Source: Massilia sp. UMI-21 (GTDB lineage Bacteria > Pseudomonadota > Gammaproteobacteria > Burkholderiales > Burkholderiaceae_D). From it: a stretch of 64,000 nt of DNA. A program made the position numbers and the translations under genes. The stretch covers positions 2,418,001 through 2,482,000 of the forward strand of contig CP063848.1 of the NCBI GenBank assembly GCA_015277795.1. The letters are read 5' to 3'. Under the pieces are notes generated by a model that saw nothing but the letters and a program-made list of their open reading frames with translations, made no database searches and was not told the origin of the DNA. Numbering within the stretch: the stretch's first letter is position 1; each line of letters begins with the position of its first letter. Positions 27,222 to 34,643 of the stretch are shown one piece after another.

Positions 27222-27423
27222 GGTGCTTTCCTGGTTCGGGTTGGAAACCGGGACCCCGTCGCCGGGCATCCCCATGTCACTGGGCATTCAACGCCGCCGC
27301 GCGAGCCCGCGTTGACGGGCTTTACATCCGGTTACAAGTCGGATGATACGGTTAGCTGCCGTACAGTCGGGCCGGCCAGCACGGTCCTACACTGGCCGCA
27401 CGCCGATAGCCGGGAGGTGCCAC

Positions 27424-30072
27424 ATGCCAGACGCGCTCAAACTGTACAAGGCCAAGCGCAATTTCGATATCACGTCCGAGCCCGCCGAAGGCGGCGCGCC
27501 CGGCACGGAGGCGCTGACTTTCGTCATCCAGAAGCATTGGGCGAGCCGCCTGCACTACGATTTTCGCCTGGAACTCGACGGCGCGATGAAGAGCTGGGCC
27601 GTGCCCAAGGGGCCGAGCTACGACACCCACGACAAGCGCATGGCCGTGCACGTCGAGGATCATCCGATTTCGTATTCGGATTTTGAAGGCACCATTCCAC
27701 CCAAACAATATGGGGCGGGTAAAGTCATCATCTGGGACAAGGGCACCTGGGAGCCGGTCGGCGACCCGCACGAGGGCTATCGCAAAGGCAACCTGAAGTT
27801 CGAGATCCATGGCCACAAGATGCGCGGGCGCTGGGTACTGGTGCGCATGAAGGGCCGTGCCGGCGACAAGCAGGAAGCCTGGCTCCTGATCAAGGAAAAC
27901 GACGAGTACGCCCGCCCTGCGGAAGAATTCTCGGTGATCGACGAGCTGCCGGACAGCGTCAAGGCATTGCCGATGCCGAAGCGTGCGCGCAAGCCTGCTG
28001 CGAAACGGCGTGCGGCCCACACCGCCACCAAGCCTGCCGCCAAGGCGGCCACCAAGGCGGCCACCAAGCCTGCCGCCAAGGCTGCCGCCAAGCCCGCGGC
28101 GAAAGCGGCGCGCGGCAGGAAGGCGAGCCCGGCCGGCCTGCCGGAGGGCGTGGAGCAGGCCGCCTTGCCCGAGGCGTTCACCCCCGAGCTGGCGACCCTG
28201 GTCGACGCCGCGCCGCCCGATCCCGAAAATTGGGTGTTCGAAGTCAAGTTCGACGGTTACCGCATGCTGGCGCGGGTCGAGGACGGCGCGGTGCGCCTGA
28301 TCACGCGCAATGCCAATGACTGGACCGACAAGCTCAAGCCGCTGCACGACGAGCTGGTGCGCATGAAACTGCCGGACGGCTGGTACGACGGCGAGATCGT
28401 GGTCCACGACGAGCACGGCAAGCCGAACTTCGGCCTGCTGCAGCAGGCCTTCGACGGCGTGCGCACCGACGACATCGCGTACTTCCTGTTCGATGCACCC
28501 TACTGCAAGGGCTACGACCTGCGCGACGTGCCCCTGGTCGAACGCCGCGCCGCGCTCGAGCAGATCCTCAAGAAAGCCAAGTCCGACAAGGTGCGCTTCT
28601 CGGGCGAATTCGGCGCCAATCCCGAGGAGCTGGTGGTCGCCGCCTGCAAGATCGGCCTGGAAGGCGTGATCGGCAAGCGCCGCGATTCGCGCTACGTGTC
28701 GCGCCGCTCGCCCGACTGGATCAAGCTCAAGTGCGGACTGCGCCAGGAATTCGTGATCGGCGGCTTCACCGACCCCAAGGGCTCGCGCAAGGGCATCGGC
28801 TCGCTGCTGCTCGGCACCTACGACCGCGAAGGGGTGCTGCGCTATGCCGGCAACGTCGGCTCGGGTTTCAACCATGCCTCGCTGACGGACATCAAGGAGC
28901 GCCTGGAAGCGCTGCGGTCCGACCGGAGCCCGTTCGCGCCGCGCGCGGTGCCGGGGCGCCAGCACCACTGGGTCAAGCCGGTGCTGGTGGCCGAGGTGAG
29001 CTTCTCGGAATGGACCAGCACCGGGTCGGTACGCCATCCAGTATTTCAGGGCCTGCGCCAGGACAAGCCGGCGCGCGGCATCACGCGCGAGGAACCGCGC
29101 CACATCGAGGACAGCGAGGTGGGCAGGCAGCGGCCGGTCCGCGCCGACGCGCCGGCATCGCCGCCGCCGGCCGGCCTGCACGGCAAGCTGCCCGAGACAC
29201 TGCGCGTGACCCACCCTGAGCGGGTGATCGACCCGTCCACCGGCATCACCAAGCTCGACATGATCCGCTACTACGCCCTGGTGGGCGAGCTGATGATGGA
29301 ACACCTCAAGCGCCGGCCGCTCACCCTGGTGCGCGCGCCGAGCGGGATCGACGCCGAACTGGTGTTCCAGAAACACGCCGACGTCAAGAAACTCCCGGGC
29401 GTGAAGCGGATGGACCCGGCACTCGATCCGGACAACCCGCCGATGCTGGAGATCGTCAGCGTCGAGGGCATCCTGTCGGTGGCACAGTGGAACGCGATCG
29501 AGCTGCACACCCAGAACGCGGTGGCGAAACACTACGACAAGCCCGACCGCATGGTGTTCGACCTCGACCCGGGCGAGGGCGTGGCCTGGCCCGCGATGCA
29601 GGAAGCGGCCCGGATCATGCACGCCTTCCTCGACGAGCTGGGCCTCCCTTGCTTTCTCAAGACCAGCGGCGGCAAGGGGCTGCACGTGGTGGTGCCGGTC
29701 AAACCGGAGTACGGCTGGGAGTCGGTCAAGGCCTTCTCGCAAGCCATCGTGCGGCACCTGGCCGAGACCCTGCCCGACCGCTTCGCCGCCAAAAGCGGCC
29801 CCAAAAACCGGGTCGGCAAGATCTTCATCGACTACCTGCGCAACGGCCGCGGCGCCACCACCATCTGCGCCTGGGGCGCACGCGCCAGGCCGGGCATGGG
29901 GATTTCGGTGCCCCTGGCCTGGGACGAACTCGACCAGCTGAAGTCGAGCGCGCAGTGGACGGTGGCCAACGTGCACACCCGGCTGGACCAGGGCAACGCG
30001 CCCTGGGCCGGGTATGCCAGGGCGGCCAAGGGCCTGAGCAAGGCGATGAAGTTGCTGGGTTTCGATGCGTGA
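27424..30072 (+). CDS. ligD: ATP-dependent DNA ligase LigD (PE-ligase-polymerase)
   Basis: An 882-residue three-domain non-homologous end-joining enzyme in the Pseudomonas order. The 3'-phosphoesterase domain is first (about 30-190, with HWASRLHYDFRLEL). A Lys/Ala repeat linker follows (about 195-245). The ligase domain has active-site Lys275 in FEVKFDGYRM and later IKLKCG. The primase-like polymerase domain is last (about 590-870, with VFDLDPGEG and KTSGGKGLHV). GGGAGGTG precedes the ATG. Its partner Ku is 3.5 kb away on the other strand. Confidence 0.95.
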   Translation: MPDALKLYKAKRNFDITSEPAEGGAPGTEALTFVIQKHWASRLHYDFRLELDGAMKSWAVPKGPSYDTHDKRMAVHVEDHPISYSDFEGTIPPKQYGAGKVIIWDKGTWEPVGDPHEGYRKGNLKFEIHGHKMRGRWVLVRMKGRAGDKQEAWLLIKENDEYARPAEEFSVIDELPDSVKALPMPKRARKPAAKRRAAHTATKPAAKAATKAATKPAAKAAAKPAAKAARGRKASPAGLPEGVEQAALPEAFTPELATLVDAAPPDPENWVFEVKFDGYRMLARVEDGAVRLITRNANDWTDKLKPLHDELVRMKLPDGWYDGEIVVHDEHGKPNFGLLQQAFDGVRTDDIAYFLFDAPYCKGYDLRDVPLVERRAALEQILKKAKSDKVRFSGEFGANPEELVVAACKIGLEGVIGKRRDSRYVSRRSPDWIKLKCGLRQEFVIGGFTDPKGSRKGIGSLLLGTYDREGVLRYAGNVGSGFNHASLTDIKERLEALRSDRSPFAPRAVPGRQHHWVKPVLVAEVSFSEWTSTGSVRHPVFQGLRQDKPARGITREEPRHIEDSEVGRQRPVRADAPASPPPAGLHGKLPETLRVTHPERVIDPSTGITKLDMIRYYALVGELMMEHLKRRPLTLVRAPSGIDAELVFQKHADVKKLPGVKRMDPALDPDNPPMLEIVSVEGILSVAQWNAIELHTQNAVAKHYDKPDRMVFDLDPGEGVAWPAMQEAARIMHAFLDELGLPCFLKTSGGKGLHVVVPVKPEYGWESVKAFSQAIVRHLAETLPDRFAAKSGPKNRVGKIFIDYLRNGRGATTICAWGARARPGMGISVPLAWDELDQLKSSAQWTVANVHTRLDQGNAPWAGYARAAKGLSKAMKLLGFDA
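28018..28110 (+). repeat. Lys/Ala repeat linker in ligD
   Basis: Imperfect 12-bp units of the GCCACCAAGCCT/GCCGCCAAGGCG type encode an (A-T/A-K-P/A)n linker between the phosphoesterase and ligase domains. It is in frame, so loss or gain of units changes linker length only. Confidence 0.75.
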
Positions 30073-30119
30073 GCGGCTGCCGGCGGCGCTCCCGACGCAC
30101 ACGGCCAGCAGCGCCTGCC

Positions 30120-31583
30120 TCAGTCGATGTGACGGCCCCGCGCCTTCAGCGCAGCCCTGACGCCACGCCCGTAGGCCGGATCCGCCCGGTCGAACTGGCG
30201 CAGCTGGCGCCGCAGGATGTCCTCGTCCACCCCGCTGAGCGGCGCGGCCAGGTTGTCGCACAGGTCCTGCCGCGCCGAAGGCGTCATCAGGCGGAACAAA
30301 TTGCCGGCCTGGGTGGTGTCGTCTTCCATGCCGCGGAAATCGTAGCGGCCCGCGTCCCCGGTGATCGGCAGCTCCGGCTCGCCATGCCCCATGCCCAGCG
30401 CGCCGCGGCCTTCACCGTCGATGGTGGCATAGTTGCGCGCGGCGCCGCCGTTGGCGATCGCCATCGCGCCGTCGCGCTGCTGGTTGTGGAAAGGGCAGCG
30501 CGGGGCGTTCACCGGCAGGTGCTGGTGGTTGGTGCCGACCCGGTACAGCTGGGCGTCGTGGTAGGCGAACAGGCGGCCCTGCAGCATCTTGTCCGGCGAG
30601 TAGCCCATGCCCGGCACCACGTTGGCCGGTGAAAACGCGGCCTGCTCGACTTCGGCGTGGTAATTGTCCGGATTACGGTTCAGTTCGAGTACGCCGACCT
30701 GCAGCATCGGGAAGTCGCCGTGCGGCCAGACCTTGGTCAGGTCGAAGGGGTTCCAGCCGGTGCGCCGCTCCCAGTCGTCGAGTTGCGCGGCCGTCGCGAT
30801 CTGCACCTTGACATCCCACTGCGGGAAGTCCCCGCCCGCGATGGCCTGGAACAGGTCGCGCTGGGCGTAGTCCGGATCGGTGCCGGCGATCCGGGCCGCA
30901 TCGGAAGCGCCGAGGTTGCGGATGCCCTGGCGGGTCTTGAAATGCCACTTCACGTAGACGCGCTCGCCCGCCTCGTTGATCAGGCTGTACGTGTGGCTGC
31001 CGAAACCGTCCATGTGGCGGTAGCCATCCGGGATGCCGCGATCTGAAAACAGGATGGTCACCTGGTGCAGGCTTTCCGGGGCCCTGCTCCAGAAGTCGAA
31101 CATCATGTTGGCCGACTTCAGGTTGGTTTGCGGGTCGCGCTTCTGGGTGTGGATGAAGTCCGGGAACTTGATCGGGTCCTTGAGGAAGAACACCGGGGTG
31201 TTGTTGCCGACCAGGTCCCAGTTGCCTTCTTCGGTATAGAAGCGCAGCGCGAAACCCCTTGGATCGCGTTCCGTGTCGGCGCTGCCTTTCTCGCCGCCGA
31301 CGGTCGAGAAGCGCAGGAATACCGGGGTGGTCTTGCCGATCTCCGCGAACAATTTCGCCTTGGTATGGGCGCGCAGGTCGCCGGTGACGGTGAAGCTTCC
31401 ATGGGCGCCCGAGCCCTTGGCGTGGACCACGCGCTCGGGAATGCGCTCGCGGTTGAAGTGCTGCAGTTTCTCGATCAGGTGGAAGTCCTGCAGCAGCAAG
31501 GGGCCGCGCGGCCCCGCGCTGAGCGAGTTCTGGTTGTCGGCGACCGGGATGCCGGAGGCAGTGGTCAGGCGCGTATGGGTCAT
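30120..31583 (-). CDS. Monofunctional catalase (small-subunit, clade 3 type)
   Basis: A 487-residue heme catalase that breaks down hydrogen peroxide. Distal His54 is in RVVHAKGSGAHG, the distal Asn region is in FFLKDPIKFPD, and the proximal heme Tyr region is RLFAYHDAQLYR (about 334-345). No signal peptide and no C-terminal flavodoxin-like extension are present, so it is the short cytoplasmic form. It is 71 bp downstream of the App1-type gene. A perfect 12-bp inverted repeat in the leader covers the GAGGAGA ribosome site. It converges with ligD. Confidence 0.93.
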   Translation of the reverse strand: MTHTRLTTASGIPVADNQNSLSAGPRGPLLLQDFHLIEKLQHFNRERIPERVVHAKGSGAHGSFTVTGDLRAHTKAKLFAEIGKTTPVFLRFSTVGGEKGSADTERDPRGFALRFYTEEGNWDLVGNNTPVFFLKDPIKFPDFIHTQKRDPQTNLKSANMMFDFWSRAPESLHQVTILFSDRGIPDGYRHMDGFGSHTYSLINEAGERVYVKWHFKTRQGIRNLGASDAARIAGTDPDYAQRDLFQAIAGGDFPQWDVKVQIATAAQLDDWERRTGWNPFDLTKVWPHGDFPMLQVGVLELNRNPDNYHAEVEQAAFSPANVVPGMGYSPDKMLQGRLFAYHDAQLYRVGTNHQHLPVNAPRCPFHNQQRDGAMAIANGGAARNYATIDGEGRGALGMGHGEPELPITGDAGRYDFRGMEDDTTQAGNLFRLMTPSARQDLCDNLAAPLSGVDEDILRRQLRQFDRADPAYGRGVRAALKARGRHID

Positions 31584-31587
31584 GCGG

Positions 31588-31620
31588 GAATCTCCTCATG
31601 GGTAATTGATGAGGAGATTC
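31588..31620 (-). promoter_or_regulatory. Perfect inverted repeat over the catalase ribosome-binding site
   Basis: GAATCTCCTCAT (31588-31599) and ATGAGGAGATTC (31609-31620) are exact reverse complements with a 9-base centre. On the catalase mRNA the 3' arm carries the Shine-Dalgarno GAGGAGA, 4 bases before the ATG, and the 5' arm is its exact complement. Upstream, 31617-31622 reads TAGAAT on the minus strand, a possible -10, so the repeat could instead be a DNA operator over -10/+1. The AT-rich run 31630-31655 lies just upstream. Confidence 0.7.
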
Positions 31621-31654
31621 TATGGCCGGCTTGATTATTAATAAATTTGATTAA

Positions 31655-33154
31655 TTAGATCGGAGTAATAGGTTTTGATAATCCCGACGTCAGGGGCGGC
31701 GCGCCATCGTCCTCGCGCTCGTCGGCGCGGATCGACGCCAGCCGGTCGACCGCGATCAGGCCCTCAGCCGCCGCATGGGAAGCGGCGAACACGCTGTCGG
31801 GCGAGAGCACCAGCTGGGCGCCGGTGCTGCGGACTTCCTCGATCAGGCGGTCGAGGGCGTCGATGCGCGAGGGATCGGGATTGACGTTGCGGATGTAGAT
31901 CATCTTCACCGCATGCGGATGGCGGCGCACGACTTCGGCATAGATTTCCGGATCCTGCTCGCCGCTGTCGCCGATCAGCACGAATTGCATGCCGGGATAG
32001 AAATCCAGGATGCGCTCGATCTGTTCCAGCTTGTGGTTGCCGTGCTCGGTGAGCTTGAGCACCTGGCGCACGCTCAGTTCGCGCAGCAGCAGGGGGCCGA
32101 CCGGGATACCCTGCAGCTTGAGGAAGTCGACCAGCGGCCCGTACAGGTGCCAGGGACTGCTCGAGACGTAGAACAGGGGATTGTCCTCGTTGCCCCCCAG
32201 GCCGTCGCGCAGCGCGCGGTAGAAGCCGGCCACGCCCTTGAACGGCTTGCGCGTGTGGTGGTTGCTGCGGGCCAGCATCAGCGCCATGTTCAGCTTGTTG
32301 GTGACGTTGGTCCACAGGACGGTATCGTCGATGTCGCTGATGATGCCGAAGCGGGCGCCGGTGGCCGGCACCTTGATGTCGGCGCTGGCGCGCAGCGGCG
32401 CGCCGTCCGGCTGCAGGTTGTCCGGAAATTCGAGCTCGACCCGGTGCCAGCCTTCCGCGAGCGGCGTGCCGGACGCGAAGTCGAAGGAAAAGTAGCCGCC
32501 GCGGTCGGATCGCGTCTCATGGGTGGCGCCGCCGAAATGGGCCAGCACGCGCGCATCGGCCACTTCGTCCGATTCCAGGCGCTGGTACAGGGCCAGCAGG
32601 TTCTGCCAGCCGCTGTCGGCGCCGCTCTGTTCGCGAAAGTCGGCTTCGTCCAGCAGCCGGCCCTTGAGCCAGATGCGGCCGGCATTGCCGAAGCCGAGGT
32701 AGGGCGCCGCCATCAGGCGCCGTCCACGCTCGGGGGCGCGCAGCCGGCGCCAGGCCAGGCTGGCCAGGGCCCCGGCGCTGCGCGCCAGGCGCCGGCCCAG
32801 GGGCATGGCAGGGGTCGTCGGCGCACTGGCCGGTCGCAGCGTATCGGCCGCCGTGGCCGCCGTGGCCGCCGTGGCCGAGCGCGCTGCGCCGCGTTCGACC
32901 CAGACGTTGCCGAGCGGATCGCGGGTCGCTTGCAGGGCCTGCAGGGTTTGCCTGATCTGGCCGGGCTGGCGCGGGTCGACCGGCGTTGCCATGACGTGCA
33001 CCGAAGCGCCGGTCTCGCGCAGGCTGGCGATGTCCGCTTCCGAGAGCAGGCCGGGATTGAGGAAGAGCGCGGCCTTGCCGAGGTCGACGCGGGCGGCGAT
33101 ATCGTCGAAACCGGCGCGGGTGAGCACGAGGAAGGGCATGGCGCTGTCTGGCAT
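31655..33154 (-). CDS. App1-type phosphatidate phosphatase domain protein
   Basis: A 499-residue soluble protein. The C-terminal half contains the HAD-like App1/DUF2183 catalytic domain: ISDIDDTVLWTNV (about 275-287) with the DxDDT nucleophile, FYVSSSPWHLY (about 330) and FVLIGDSGEQD (about 390). A beta-rich segment precedes it. The N-terminal about 100 residues (LTRAGFDDIAARVDLGKAALFLNPG) form a separate unknown domain, joined by an Ala-rich linker with a 9-bp repeat at 32845-32871. An inner ATG at 33139 is an alternative start. It lies upstream of catalase on the same strand. Confidence 0.8.
   Translation of the reverse strand: MPDSAMPFLVLTRAGFDDIAARVDLGKAALFLNPGLLSEADIASLRETGASVHVMATPVDPRQPGQIRQTLQALQATRDPLGNVWVERGAARSATAATAATAADTLRPASAPTTPAMPLGRRLARSAGALASLAWRRLRAPERGRRLMAAPYLGFGNAGRIWLKGRLLDEADFREQSGADSGWQNLLALYQRLESDEVADARVLAHFGGATHETRSDRGGYFSFDFASGTPLAEGWHRVELEFPDNLQPDGAPLRASADIKVPATGARFGIISDIDDTVLWTNVTNKLNMALMLARSNHHTRKPFKGVAGFYRALRDGLGGNEDNPLFYVSSSPWHLYGPLVDFLKLQGIPVGPLLLRELSVRQVLKLTEHGNHKLEQIERILDFYPGMQFVLIGDSGEQDPEIYAEVVRRHPHAVKMIYIRNVNPDPSRIDALDRLIEEVRSTGAQLVLSPDSVFAASHAAAEGLIAVDRLASIRADEREDDGAPPLTSGLSKPITPI
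32845..32871 (-). repeat. 9-bp tandem repeat in the App1-type gene
   Basis: Three exact copies of GCCGCCGTG (plus strand) encode an Ala-Thr-Ala run in the linker after the N-terminal domain. The repeat stays in frame. Confidence 0.8.
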
Positions 33155-33308
33155 GGTCGGATCGGGCGTAGTCGGGATATGCCAAGTATCGCTCAGGCGG
33201 GCGGAATCGCACGCACGCCAAGCGGGTGGCGGCCAGGGCGCGCGGCAAGCGCCGGCCAGTGTCCCGGATTTTCCCCGGATTTATTCGAGGTATCTCGCAT
33301 TCAGGACA

Positions 33309-33545
33309 CTAGGACGACTCGTTCTTGAAGATGCCCCGCACGTTCATCGCCATCAGCGCCGCCTGCAGGACGATCAGCGCCCAGGCCTGGTCGTGGACAC
33401 CCCACACGATCCACAGCACGTTGCTGAGGATGAACATGCTGAAGCCGAACACGCGCCGCTCGGCGCGCTTGGAGCCGATCAGGTAGGCCGCATACAGCGT
33501 GACCAGCATCGCCGGCCACTGGAGGAAATCGATCAATTCATCCAT
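33309..33545 (-). CDS. Small three-helix membrane protein behind ku
   Basis: A 78-residue protein with three hydrophobic segments at about 6-23, 32-49 and 52-68, joined by short basic loops (GSKRAERR). NVLWIVWGV in the second helix and the size recall SemiSWEET/PnuC-like half-transporters, but that is only a resemblance. Its ATG is 3 nt after the ku stop codon, so it is almost certainly co-translated with Ku. The function is unknown. Confidence 0.7.
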   Translation of the reverse strand: MDELIDFLQWPAMLVTLYAAYLIGSKRAERRVFGFSMFILSNVLWIVWGVHDQAWALIVLQAALMAMNVRGIFKNESS

Positions 33546-33548
33546 CCG

Positions 33549-34643
33549 TCACGCCGCCTTCCTGCGGCGCGCGGGGGCCGTCGATGGGGCGCCGCCGGAT
33601 GCGGTGGAGGTCTTCCTGGCGGCGGTCTTCCTGGCGGCCGGCTTGGCAGCGGCTTTCGGCGCGCTCTTCGAAGCGGTGCGCTTCGGCGCGGCGCCGCTGG
33701 CGGCCACCCGGTCGCTGCCGTGCGAGGCCGTCTTGCGCGCGCGCGGCGGCGGCGCTTCCTGCTCGTCGTCGTCCTCGGCGGCGGGGCGGCGCTTCCTTGA
33801 CGGCGGCGGTTCGTCGTCATCGTCGTCGTCGGCCGCGGGCCTGGAAGCTTTCTTGCCCAGGCTGGCCTGCAACAGCGAGACCAGGTCGATCACCTTGCCG
33901 CTCTCGCGCCTGGCCTCGCCCGGTTCGGGCTGGGTGATGGTCTTGGTCTGGTGCGCCTTGACCTTCTTCTCGATCAGGGCCATGACGTCCTCGCGGTAGC
34001 TGTCGTGGTACTGCTCGGGGTCCCAGTCCTCGGCCATGCCCTGTACGAGTGCCATTGCCATCTTGAGTTCCTTGTCGGTGATCGCGGCCTTCTTGTCGTC
34101 GGCCGCGGGGATCTTGAGCTCGCCCGCGTCGCGGATCTCGTCGGCGTAGCGCAGCGTGTTCATGACGATGGCGTCGCCCACGCACACCAGCGCCGCGAGG
34201 TGCTGCTTGACGCGGATGACGACGCGCGCGATGCCGATCTTGCCCGCCTTGCGCAAGGTCTCGCGCAGCAGCGCGTAGACCTTCTCGCCGCCCTTGCCGG
34301 GCGCCAGGTAGTAGGGCTGTTCGAAGTAGAGCAGCGACACGTCCTCGGCATCCACGAAGGCCAGGATGTCGATGGTCTGGGTCGCCTCCGGGTTGGCGCG
34401 CCGCAGGTCTTCTTCCGACAGCACGACGTACTCGCCGCTGGTGTACTCGTAGCCCTTGACGATGTCGTCCCAGGAGACTTCCTTGCCGTTGCCTTTGTTG
34501 TAGCGCTTGAACCCGACCGGCGAGAAGTCGCGCCGGTCGAGCATGGTCAGGTCGAGCCCTTTGCTGTCGACCGCCGTGTACATATCGACAGGGATGTGCA
34601 CCAGCCCGAAGCTGATCGCACCCTTCCACATGCTGCGCGGCAT
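33549..34643 (-). CDS. ku: Ku DNA end-binding protein
   Basis: A 364-residue bacterial Ku that binds broken DNA ends and recruits LigD. The core opens with WKGAISFGLVHIPV (6-19) and continues through LLYFEQPYYLAPG (about 109-121) and ELKMAMALVQGM (about 193). After about residue 255 there is an unusually long tail: an acidic stretch (ADDDDDDEPPP), then Lys/Ala/Pro-rich sequence of histone-like character, which in other Ku proteins promotes DNA binding and threading. Start ATG at 34643. The small membrane protein gene follows immediately, and an SDR gene lies upstream. Confidence 0.95.
   Translation of the reverse strand: MPRSMWKGAISFGLVHIPVDMYTAVDSKGLDLTMLDRRDFSPVGFKRYNKGNGKEVSWDDIVKGYEYTSGEYVVLSEEDLRRANPEATQTIDILAFVDAEDVSLLYFEQPYYLAPGKGGEKVYALLRETLRKAGKIGIARVVIRVKQHLAALVCVGDAIVMNTLRYADEIRDAGELKIPAADDKKAAITDKELKMAMALVQGMAEDWDPEQYHDSYREDVMALIEKKVKAHQTKTITQPEPGEARRESGKVIDLVSLLQASLGKKASRPAADDDDDDEPPPSRKRRPAAEDDDEQEAPPPRARKTASHGSDRVAASGAAPKRTASKSAPKAAAKPAARKTAARKTSTASGGAPSTAPARRRKAA

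Follow-up and report, generated by a model that had tools for sequence, protein, structure and literature searches.

Stems that guard a ribosome-binding site against transcripts arriving from outside are known from the transposase leaders of IS10 and IS50, where outside RNA forms a stem over the ribosome site and the element's own RNA does not. RNA thermometers such as ROSE and fourU also carry a stem over the Shine-Dalgarno (SD) sequence. The layout of OxyR sites is of another kind, with ATAG-type consensus quartets that repeat every 11 nt up to the edge of a weak −35, and we know of no SD-covering stem around the start of the classic OxyR-activated catalase promoters. The layout described below comes closest to that of gene e, the lysozyme gene of phage T4. 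Longer early transcripts of e, and also of soc, 49 and I-TevI, form a helix that hides the SD or the start codon; late promoters lie just upstream of the ribosome site and give RNA devoid of the 5′ strand, which is translated well; and the structured e RNA yields 100-fold less lysozyme (PMC3014915).

We analysed a window of 64,000 nucleotides from Massilia sp. UMI-21, which is related to Janthinobacterium and Duganella; in it, a gene for a catalase of 487 aa (30120–31583, minus strand; PF00199 and PF06628) begins with an ATG at 31583. Two 12-nt arms on the same strand precede it, the 5′ arm at 31609–31620 and the 3′ arm at 31588–31599. They are 100% complementary, with 12 perfect pairs, and are separated by a loop of 9 nt (31600–31608, minus strand). 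The 3′ arm stops 4 nt short of the ATG and contains the SD core AGGAG at 31592–31596. The perfect 12-bp repeat and its overlap with the catalase SD, both of which had been pointed out in the initial annotation, were therefore confirmed. The repeat pattern had a single match in the window when up to 3 mismatches were allowed, and none in 100 shuffles.

Rarity of the repeat was assessed over 333 predicted gene starts from 464 kb (the window plus 400 kb of the same genome), which is a sample and not the whole genome. Among these starts, 287 had no repeat of at least 5 in the SD zone. The longest perfect repeat with its 3′ arm on the SD zone was that of catalase (12, the next being 9), and catalase alone had a repeat of at least 10. 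By plain duplex energy between the upstream and downstream halves, catalase ranked only 103 of 333 because GC-rich halves pair well anyway. As this energy is a poor measure in a GC-rich genome, we then used the cost of opening the SD, and both measures are given here. Catalase was first of the 69 starts with a good SD in the extra opening cost contributed by the upstream half (11.8 kcal/mol, the next being 4.9 kcal/mol), and 6 of the 69 had an extra cost of at least 3 kcal/mol. The second-strongest upstream-dependent SD lock of the sampled genome, with the extra 4.9 kcal/mol, is at L233:10571.

Upstream of the catalase we observed a promoter frame of OxyR type on the minus strand. A box of the form ATTA-N7-CTAT-N7-ATCT-N7-CAAA (31646–31682) overlaps the end of the upstream gene and abuts a weak −35, TTTATT (31640–31645), which is followed by a 17-nt spacer and the −10 TAGAAT (31617–31622), located inside and just before the 5′ arm. 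In their 11-nt steps and their position right before a weak −35, the quartets resemble those of OxyR-activated catalase promoters; the third and fourth are weak in this leader. A simple scan detected no consensus sigma-70 promoter at the catalase leader, which the weak −35 would explain. The −10 opens 12 nt ahead of the predicted +1, which is the A at 31610.

This frame is shared by most of the relatives examined. We assembled 155 catalase leaders, 14 from the 80 named loci and 141 from further loci. In 133 of the 155, CTAT precedes TAnnnT by exactly 49 nt, while each of the other offsets between 30 and 61 occurred in at most 12 leaders. These gave 122 distinct stretches, in which CTAT and TAnnnT are fixed by the way the stretches were chosen. 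Beyond these two motifs, the AT at +11/+12 from CTAT and the first T of the −35 are invariant (122/122 each), and ATTG are the commonest letters 11 nt before CTAT, giving a family profile of ATTG-N7-CTAT-N7-AT. An A is found at the predicted +1 in 103 of the 122 stretches, with a C preceding it in 84. From these observations the start should lie near 31610, where the 5′ arm has its inner end, and they back the suggestion made earlier that TAGAAT is the −10, in which case the catalase's own mRNA would lack the 5′ arm.

The genome also encodes a candidate activator. An OxyR-like regulator (G000:C1:1242469-1243356) scored 261.5 bits against PRK11151, the best of the 25 matches to this model and well ahead of the next (114.5), yet below the PRK11151 cut-off of 329. 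Its best match among solved structures is named OxyR (1.4e-98), and it has both cysteines of GHCFRDQVLEVC, which we take to be the OxyR redox cysteine motif. This regulator may bind the catalase promoter. The expectation that control of this gene would not look like plain OxyR activation is not borne out by an OxyR-type box in the promoter and an OxyR-like regulator with the cysteine pair in the genome.

We then compared the predicted folds of the two RNAs. For sense RNA that includes both arms, the folding energy is −18.4 kcal/mol (z −5.3); for RNA starting at 31611 it is −11.1 kcal/mol (z −0.6). Opening the SD at 37°C is predicted to cost 16.9 kcal/mol in the read-through RNA and 5.1 kcal/mol in the own-promoter RNA, the latter being identical for every start tried from 31613 to 31603. 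By prediction, therefore, the SD is buried in an RNA that starts upstream, as had been proposed. Over the 133 leaders with the promoter frame, the SD is still partly paired in the own-promoter RNA (median unpaired probability 0.48, compared to 0.15 in the long RNA). A strict test, which demanded an unpaired probability of the SD below 0.3 in the long RNA and above 0.6 in the short one, was passed by only 27 of 133 leaders.

A source of the longer RNA may lie next to the catalase. The upstream gene, for an APP1-type phosphatase (31655–33154; PF09949), is on the same minus strand with its stop 71 nt before the catalase ATG, and no terminator-like site was found in 31500–31800. The catalase and phosphatase genes stand between LigD (27343–30072, plus strand) and Ku (33549–34643, minus strand), the two bacterial end-joining genes, within 27343–34643; at locus L138 the gene upstream of catalase is also Ku-like by eye.

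We consider it probable that this leader is a read-through lock like that of T4 gene e, placed on a chromosomal catalase with an OxyR-type promoter. The promoter would sit in the DNA encoding the 5′ half of the stem and would start transcription at the 5′ arm's inner end. The peroxide-induced mRNA would begin at or just before the loop and carry only the 3′ half, leaving the SD comparatively free. Polymerase running in from the APP1 gene would instead produce RNA with both halves, which would pair over the SD, and little catalase would be made from that RNA. In this way catalase would answer to its own promoter, even though the search turned up no terminator between the two genes. What the sequence shows is the repeat, the promoter frame, a neighbour on the same strand and the family pattern; from these we infer the read-through from the upstream gene and its effect on translation, as well as the exact start and the binding of OxyR. 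The two models of the initial annotation, a ribosome site sealed in an mRNA starting upstream or an operator over −10 and +1, left out RNA that reads through from the upstream gene and on which the lock would act. Its repeat, SD overlap and reading of the −10 were upheld, and its operator, its thermometer and its doubt about plain OxyR control were not.

The likeness to gene e lies in a promoter located inside the region that encodes the 5′ strand. At catalase, the SD is buried in the longer RNA by prediction, and the own promoter's RNA would be devoid of the 5′ strand, judging from sequence. Gene e is a phage lysis gene with late promoters, phage timing and a measured effect, whereas the catalase is chromosomal, with an OxyR-type promoter and a predicted lock. 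Unlike gene e, the catalase lock has arms with different letters in different clades. It also differs from the IS10 and IS50 guard, which serves a mobile gene in changing surroundings, in that a peroxide-defence gene is guarded here. By analogy, the layout would be that of gene e, an OxyR-type promoter taking the part of the late one. In a literature search that lay mostly outside the subscription journals, we recognised no report of such a leader for a catalase or an OxyR promoter.

Next, the lock was followed across the relatives. The promoter frame is absent from 22 of the 155 leaders, which were left out of the lock counts; 21 of the 22 have no SD-covering repeat of at least 5 and one has a repeat of 5. 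Six named loci (L002, L003, L004, L005, L009 and L013) duplicate another leader exactly, and as five of these are among the 133 remaining leaders, the counts are slightly inflated. Adding 16 more leaders of g64 gave a set of 149, from which L254, L264 and L270 had been dropped as repeats of loci already included. The source organism's own genus is g1; g30 takes in the Janthinobacterium loci L002–L004 (identical leaders), and g64 the Duganella and Pseudoduganella loci L005 and L013 (identical leaders) and L066. The read-through RNA cost at least 3 kcal/mol more to open than the own-promoter RNA in 102 of the 149 leaders, and 10 had no excess at all. By genus, an excess of this size was found in 26/26 leaders of g1, 29/33 of g30, 39/67 of g64 and 4/10 of g36.

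We also replaced the upstream halves by those of other genera. The mean SD-opening cost with the own and the foreign halves was 10.3 and 5.7 in g1 (own higher in 26/26), 11.2 and 3.4 in g30 (32/33), 7.0 and 5.6 in g64 (43/67), and 5.8 and 5.1 in g36 (4/10). Scored by how probably the SD pairs with the upstream half, own and foreign halves gave 0.94 and 0.65 in g1, 0.93 and 0.44 in g30, 0.67 and 0.65 in g64, and 0.38 and 0.65 in g36. Dinucleotide-shuffled upstream halves were as good as the own in 16/312 cases for g1, 42/396 for g30, 159/804 for g64 and 63/120 for g36. By duplex energy alone, the own halves of g1 (−12.3) were no better than those of other genera (−12.1), and only 63 of the 133 leaders had an upstream half that beat 95 of 100 shuffles. 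The lock is not above chance in g36 and is uneven in g64.

Where the lock is present, its construction varies. In g1 the 5′ arm runs from the −10 to the +1. In g30 (28 of 33 leaders aligned), the −35/−10 spacer and the SD region are joined by about 19–20 pairs, and a loop of about 22 nt holds the −10. Part of g64 has a long stem spanning the −10 (15 of 67 leaders, picked by eye, were aligned; 51 were folded), and some leaders of this genus, such as L191, have the SD partly in an internal loop between two helices. Constant features are a 5′ strand upstream of the +1 and a 3′ strand at the SD. From these sequences, relatives in other genera appear to bury the SD with arms of unrelated sequence, differently placed around the −10.

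Compensatory changes in related genomes, a check proposed in the initial annotation, gave a thin result. In alignment A1, both sides had changed in 3 pairs and 8 cells, where shuffling gave means of 1.5 and 2.7, and 73 of 500 shuffles reached 3 double-changed pairs; there were no double-changed pairs in A3 and no consensus structure in A2. Over 151 leaders, G-U cells numbered 137 and A-C cells 182, the same ratio as in shuffled halves (1159 and 1461). A stricter subset of 62 leaders had 48 G-U and 23 A-C cells, but these came from 18 and 21 distinct events. G-U is not enriched over A-C, so this comparison does not favour a role in RNA over one in DNA.

If the lock acts on read-through RNA, its strength set against the direction of the neighbour offers a clear comparative test. 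The next upstream gene, called by a codon model for the 133 leaders, was co-directional in 116 (99 within 300 nt and 17 farther), divergent in 8 and not called in 9. The upstream proteins, judged by eye, belong to several different families; Pfam was run on two and gave APP1 and DSBA-like. The SD was mostly paired with the upstream half in 100/116 leaders with a co-directional neighbour, 4/8 with a divergent one and 5/9 uncalled (Fisher P = 0.023, not corrected for kinship). We curated the calls by eye: L205, called divergent, and L149, L199 and L208, all uncalled, became co-directional, the uncalled L001 became divergent, and the divergent L008 became unclear; the 16 added g64 leaders were all taken as co-directional. 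After this, the SD was locked in 116/136 co-directional, 2/7 divergent and 3/6 unclear cases (Fisher P = 0.002; Mann–Whitney on duplex energy P = 0.026; neither corrected for kinship). This contrast is helped by the curation and comes from few lineages, the 7 divergent cases being about 5 lineages by our reading.

A pair of close relatives illustrates the contrast. L164 has a divergent neighbour and L200 a co-directional one, and the two leaders are 93% identical in the 60 nt surrounding the start codon. The 3′ half of L164 pairs at −26.9 with the 5′ half of L200 and at only −11.6 with its own, which indicates that L164 has lost the 5′ arm and retained the 3′ arm. There are also counterexamples: with a divergent neighbour, the lock is strong in L217 (P 0.95) and still present, if weak, in L150 (0.53), and L130 is unlocked despite a co-directional neighbour. 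Most g36 members were called with a co-directional upstream gene, among them the unlocked L134, L135, L151, L153 and L179. In L211 and L217, both of g36, the divergent neighbour of catalase resembles topoisomerase IB by eye; the lock is strong in L217 and not in L211.

Other origins and uses of the repeat were weighed against these data. Template switching between imperfect arms is a known type of mutation, and it could remake inverted repeats that have no function. The chance-level lock of g36, its unevenness in g64 and the scarcity of column-wise covariation are what such a neutral origin would lead one to expect. We nevertheless regard it as unlikely: a repeat of at least 10 is rare in the sampled genome, arms unrelated in sequence recur on or beside the SD of this single gene, and the lock is weaker on average with a divergent neighbour. 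We judge it less likely still that the mRNA starts upstream and that the lock is itself regulated, either as an RNA thermometer or through opening in trans by a small RNA or protein. Burial of the SD in the long RNA would suit such control, but the promoter frame and the conserved A at +1 place the start where the 5′ arm has its inner end, and opening the read-through RNA is predicted to take 15.6 kcal/mol even at 42°C and 13.5 kcal/mol at 50°C. Nor was there an Rfam match in 31300–31900 at E values up to 1. The stem over the SD is shared with RNA thermometers, but by prediction it is too stable to melt in the physiological range, and the own-promoter RNA would be without one arm; the thermometer of the initial annotation was not supported.

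Its alternative, an operator at which a dimeric repressor would bind the dyad, agrees with the position of the dyad across −10 and +1, and the G-U and A-C counts are compatible with a DNA role. A conserved protein would need a fixed site, however, and the arm sequence, its distance to the −10 and the loop (9 nt here, and the much longer one of g30) vary by clade, which makes an operator of fixed sequence very improbable. We give equally little credence to a stem that serves the upstream gene, as a stabiliser of its 3′ end or as an RNase III site, with hiding of the SD as a by-product. Such a use would be in keeping with the usual same-strand neighbour and, should the predicted start be correct, with a full stem confined to RNA arriving from upstream. 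It is at odds with the several different upstream genes, judged by eye, that precede the same layout and with 3′ arms that end at or around the SD, and there was no direct sign of processing here. The read-through lock is thus preferred, and the case for it rests on the differing arms, the promoter frame and the neighbour, as read from sequence.

A broader proposal is that promoter-embedded stems in bacterial chromosomes are translational insulators that replace terminators, the catalase lock having been built several times within one family with unrelated arms and decaying when the neighbour turns away. This extension is tentative, and we hold it with slightly more doubt than belief. If true, an inducible gene could follow a same-strand neighbour closely with no terminator found between them, since its own promoter makes an unlocked message, and a trick of phages and transposons would be in everyday chromosomal use. 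One could then look for the same kind of insulator at other genes that must respond to no promoter but their own, and RNA-seq reads over such genes need not reflect protein.

Repeats over the SD zone were also seen elsewhere. The 66 named loci not used as leaders included 49 that could be scored, and 6 had repeats of 7–9. Repeats of 8–9 bp over the SD zone outside the family were observed in L050, L049, L052 and L058 (named Pseudomonas and Pantoea). Twelve of the 22 leaders without the promoter frame form a second group of catalases of the own genus (L099–L109 and L119). Their upstream gene is divergent in 7, co-directional in 4 (at 215–1172 nt) and uncalled in 1. Many of these leaders carry a palindrome-like CTATCGA...TCGATAG, and that of L101 has a perfect palindrome of 24 nt.
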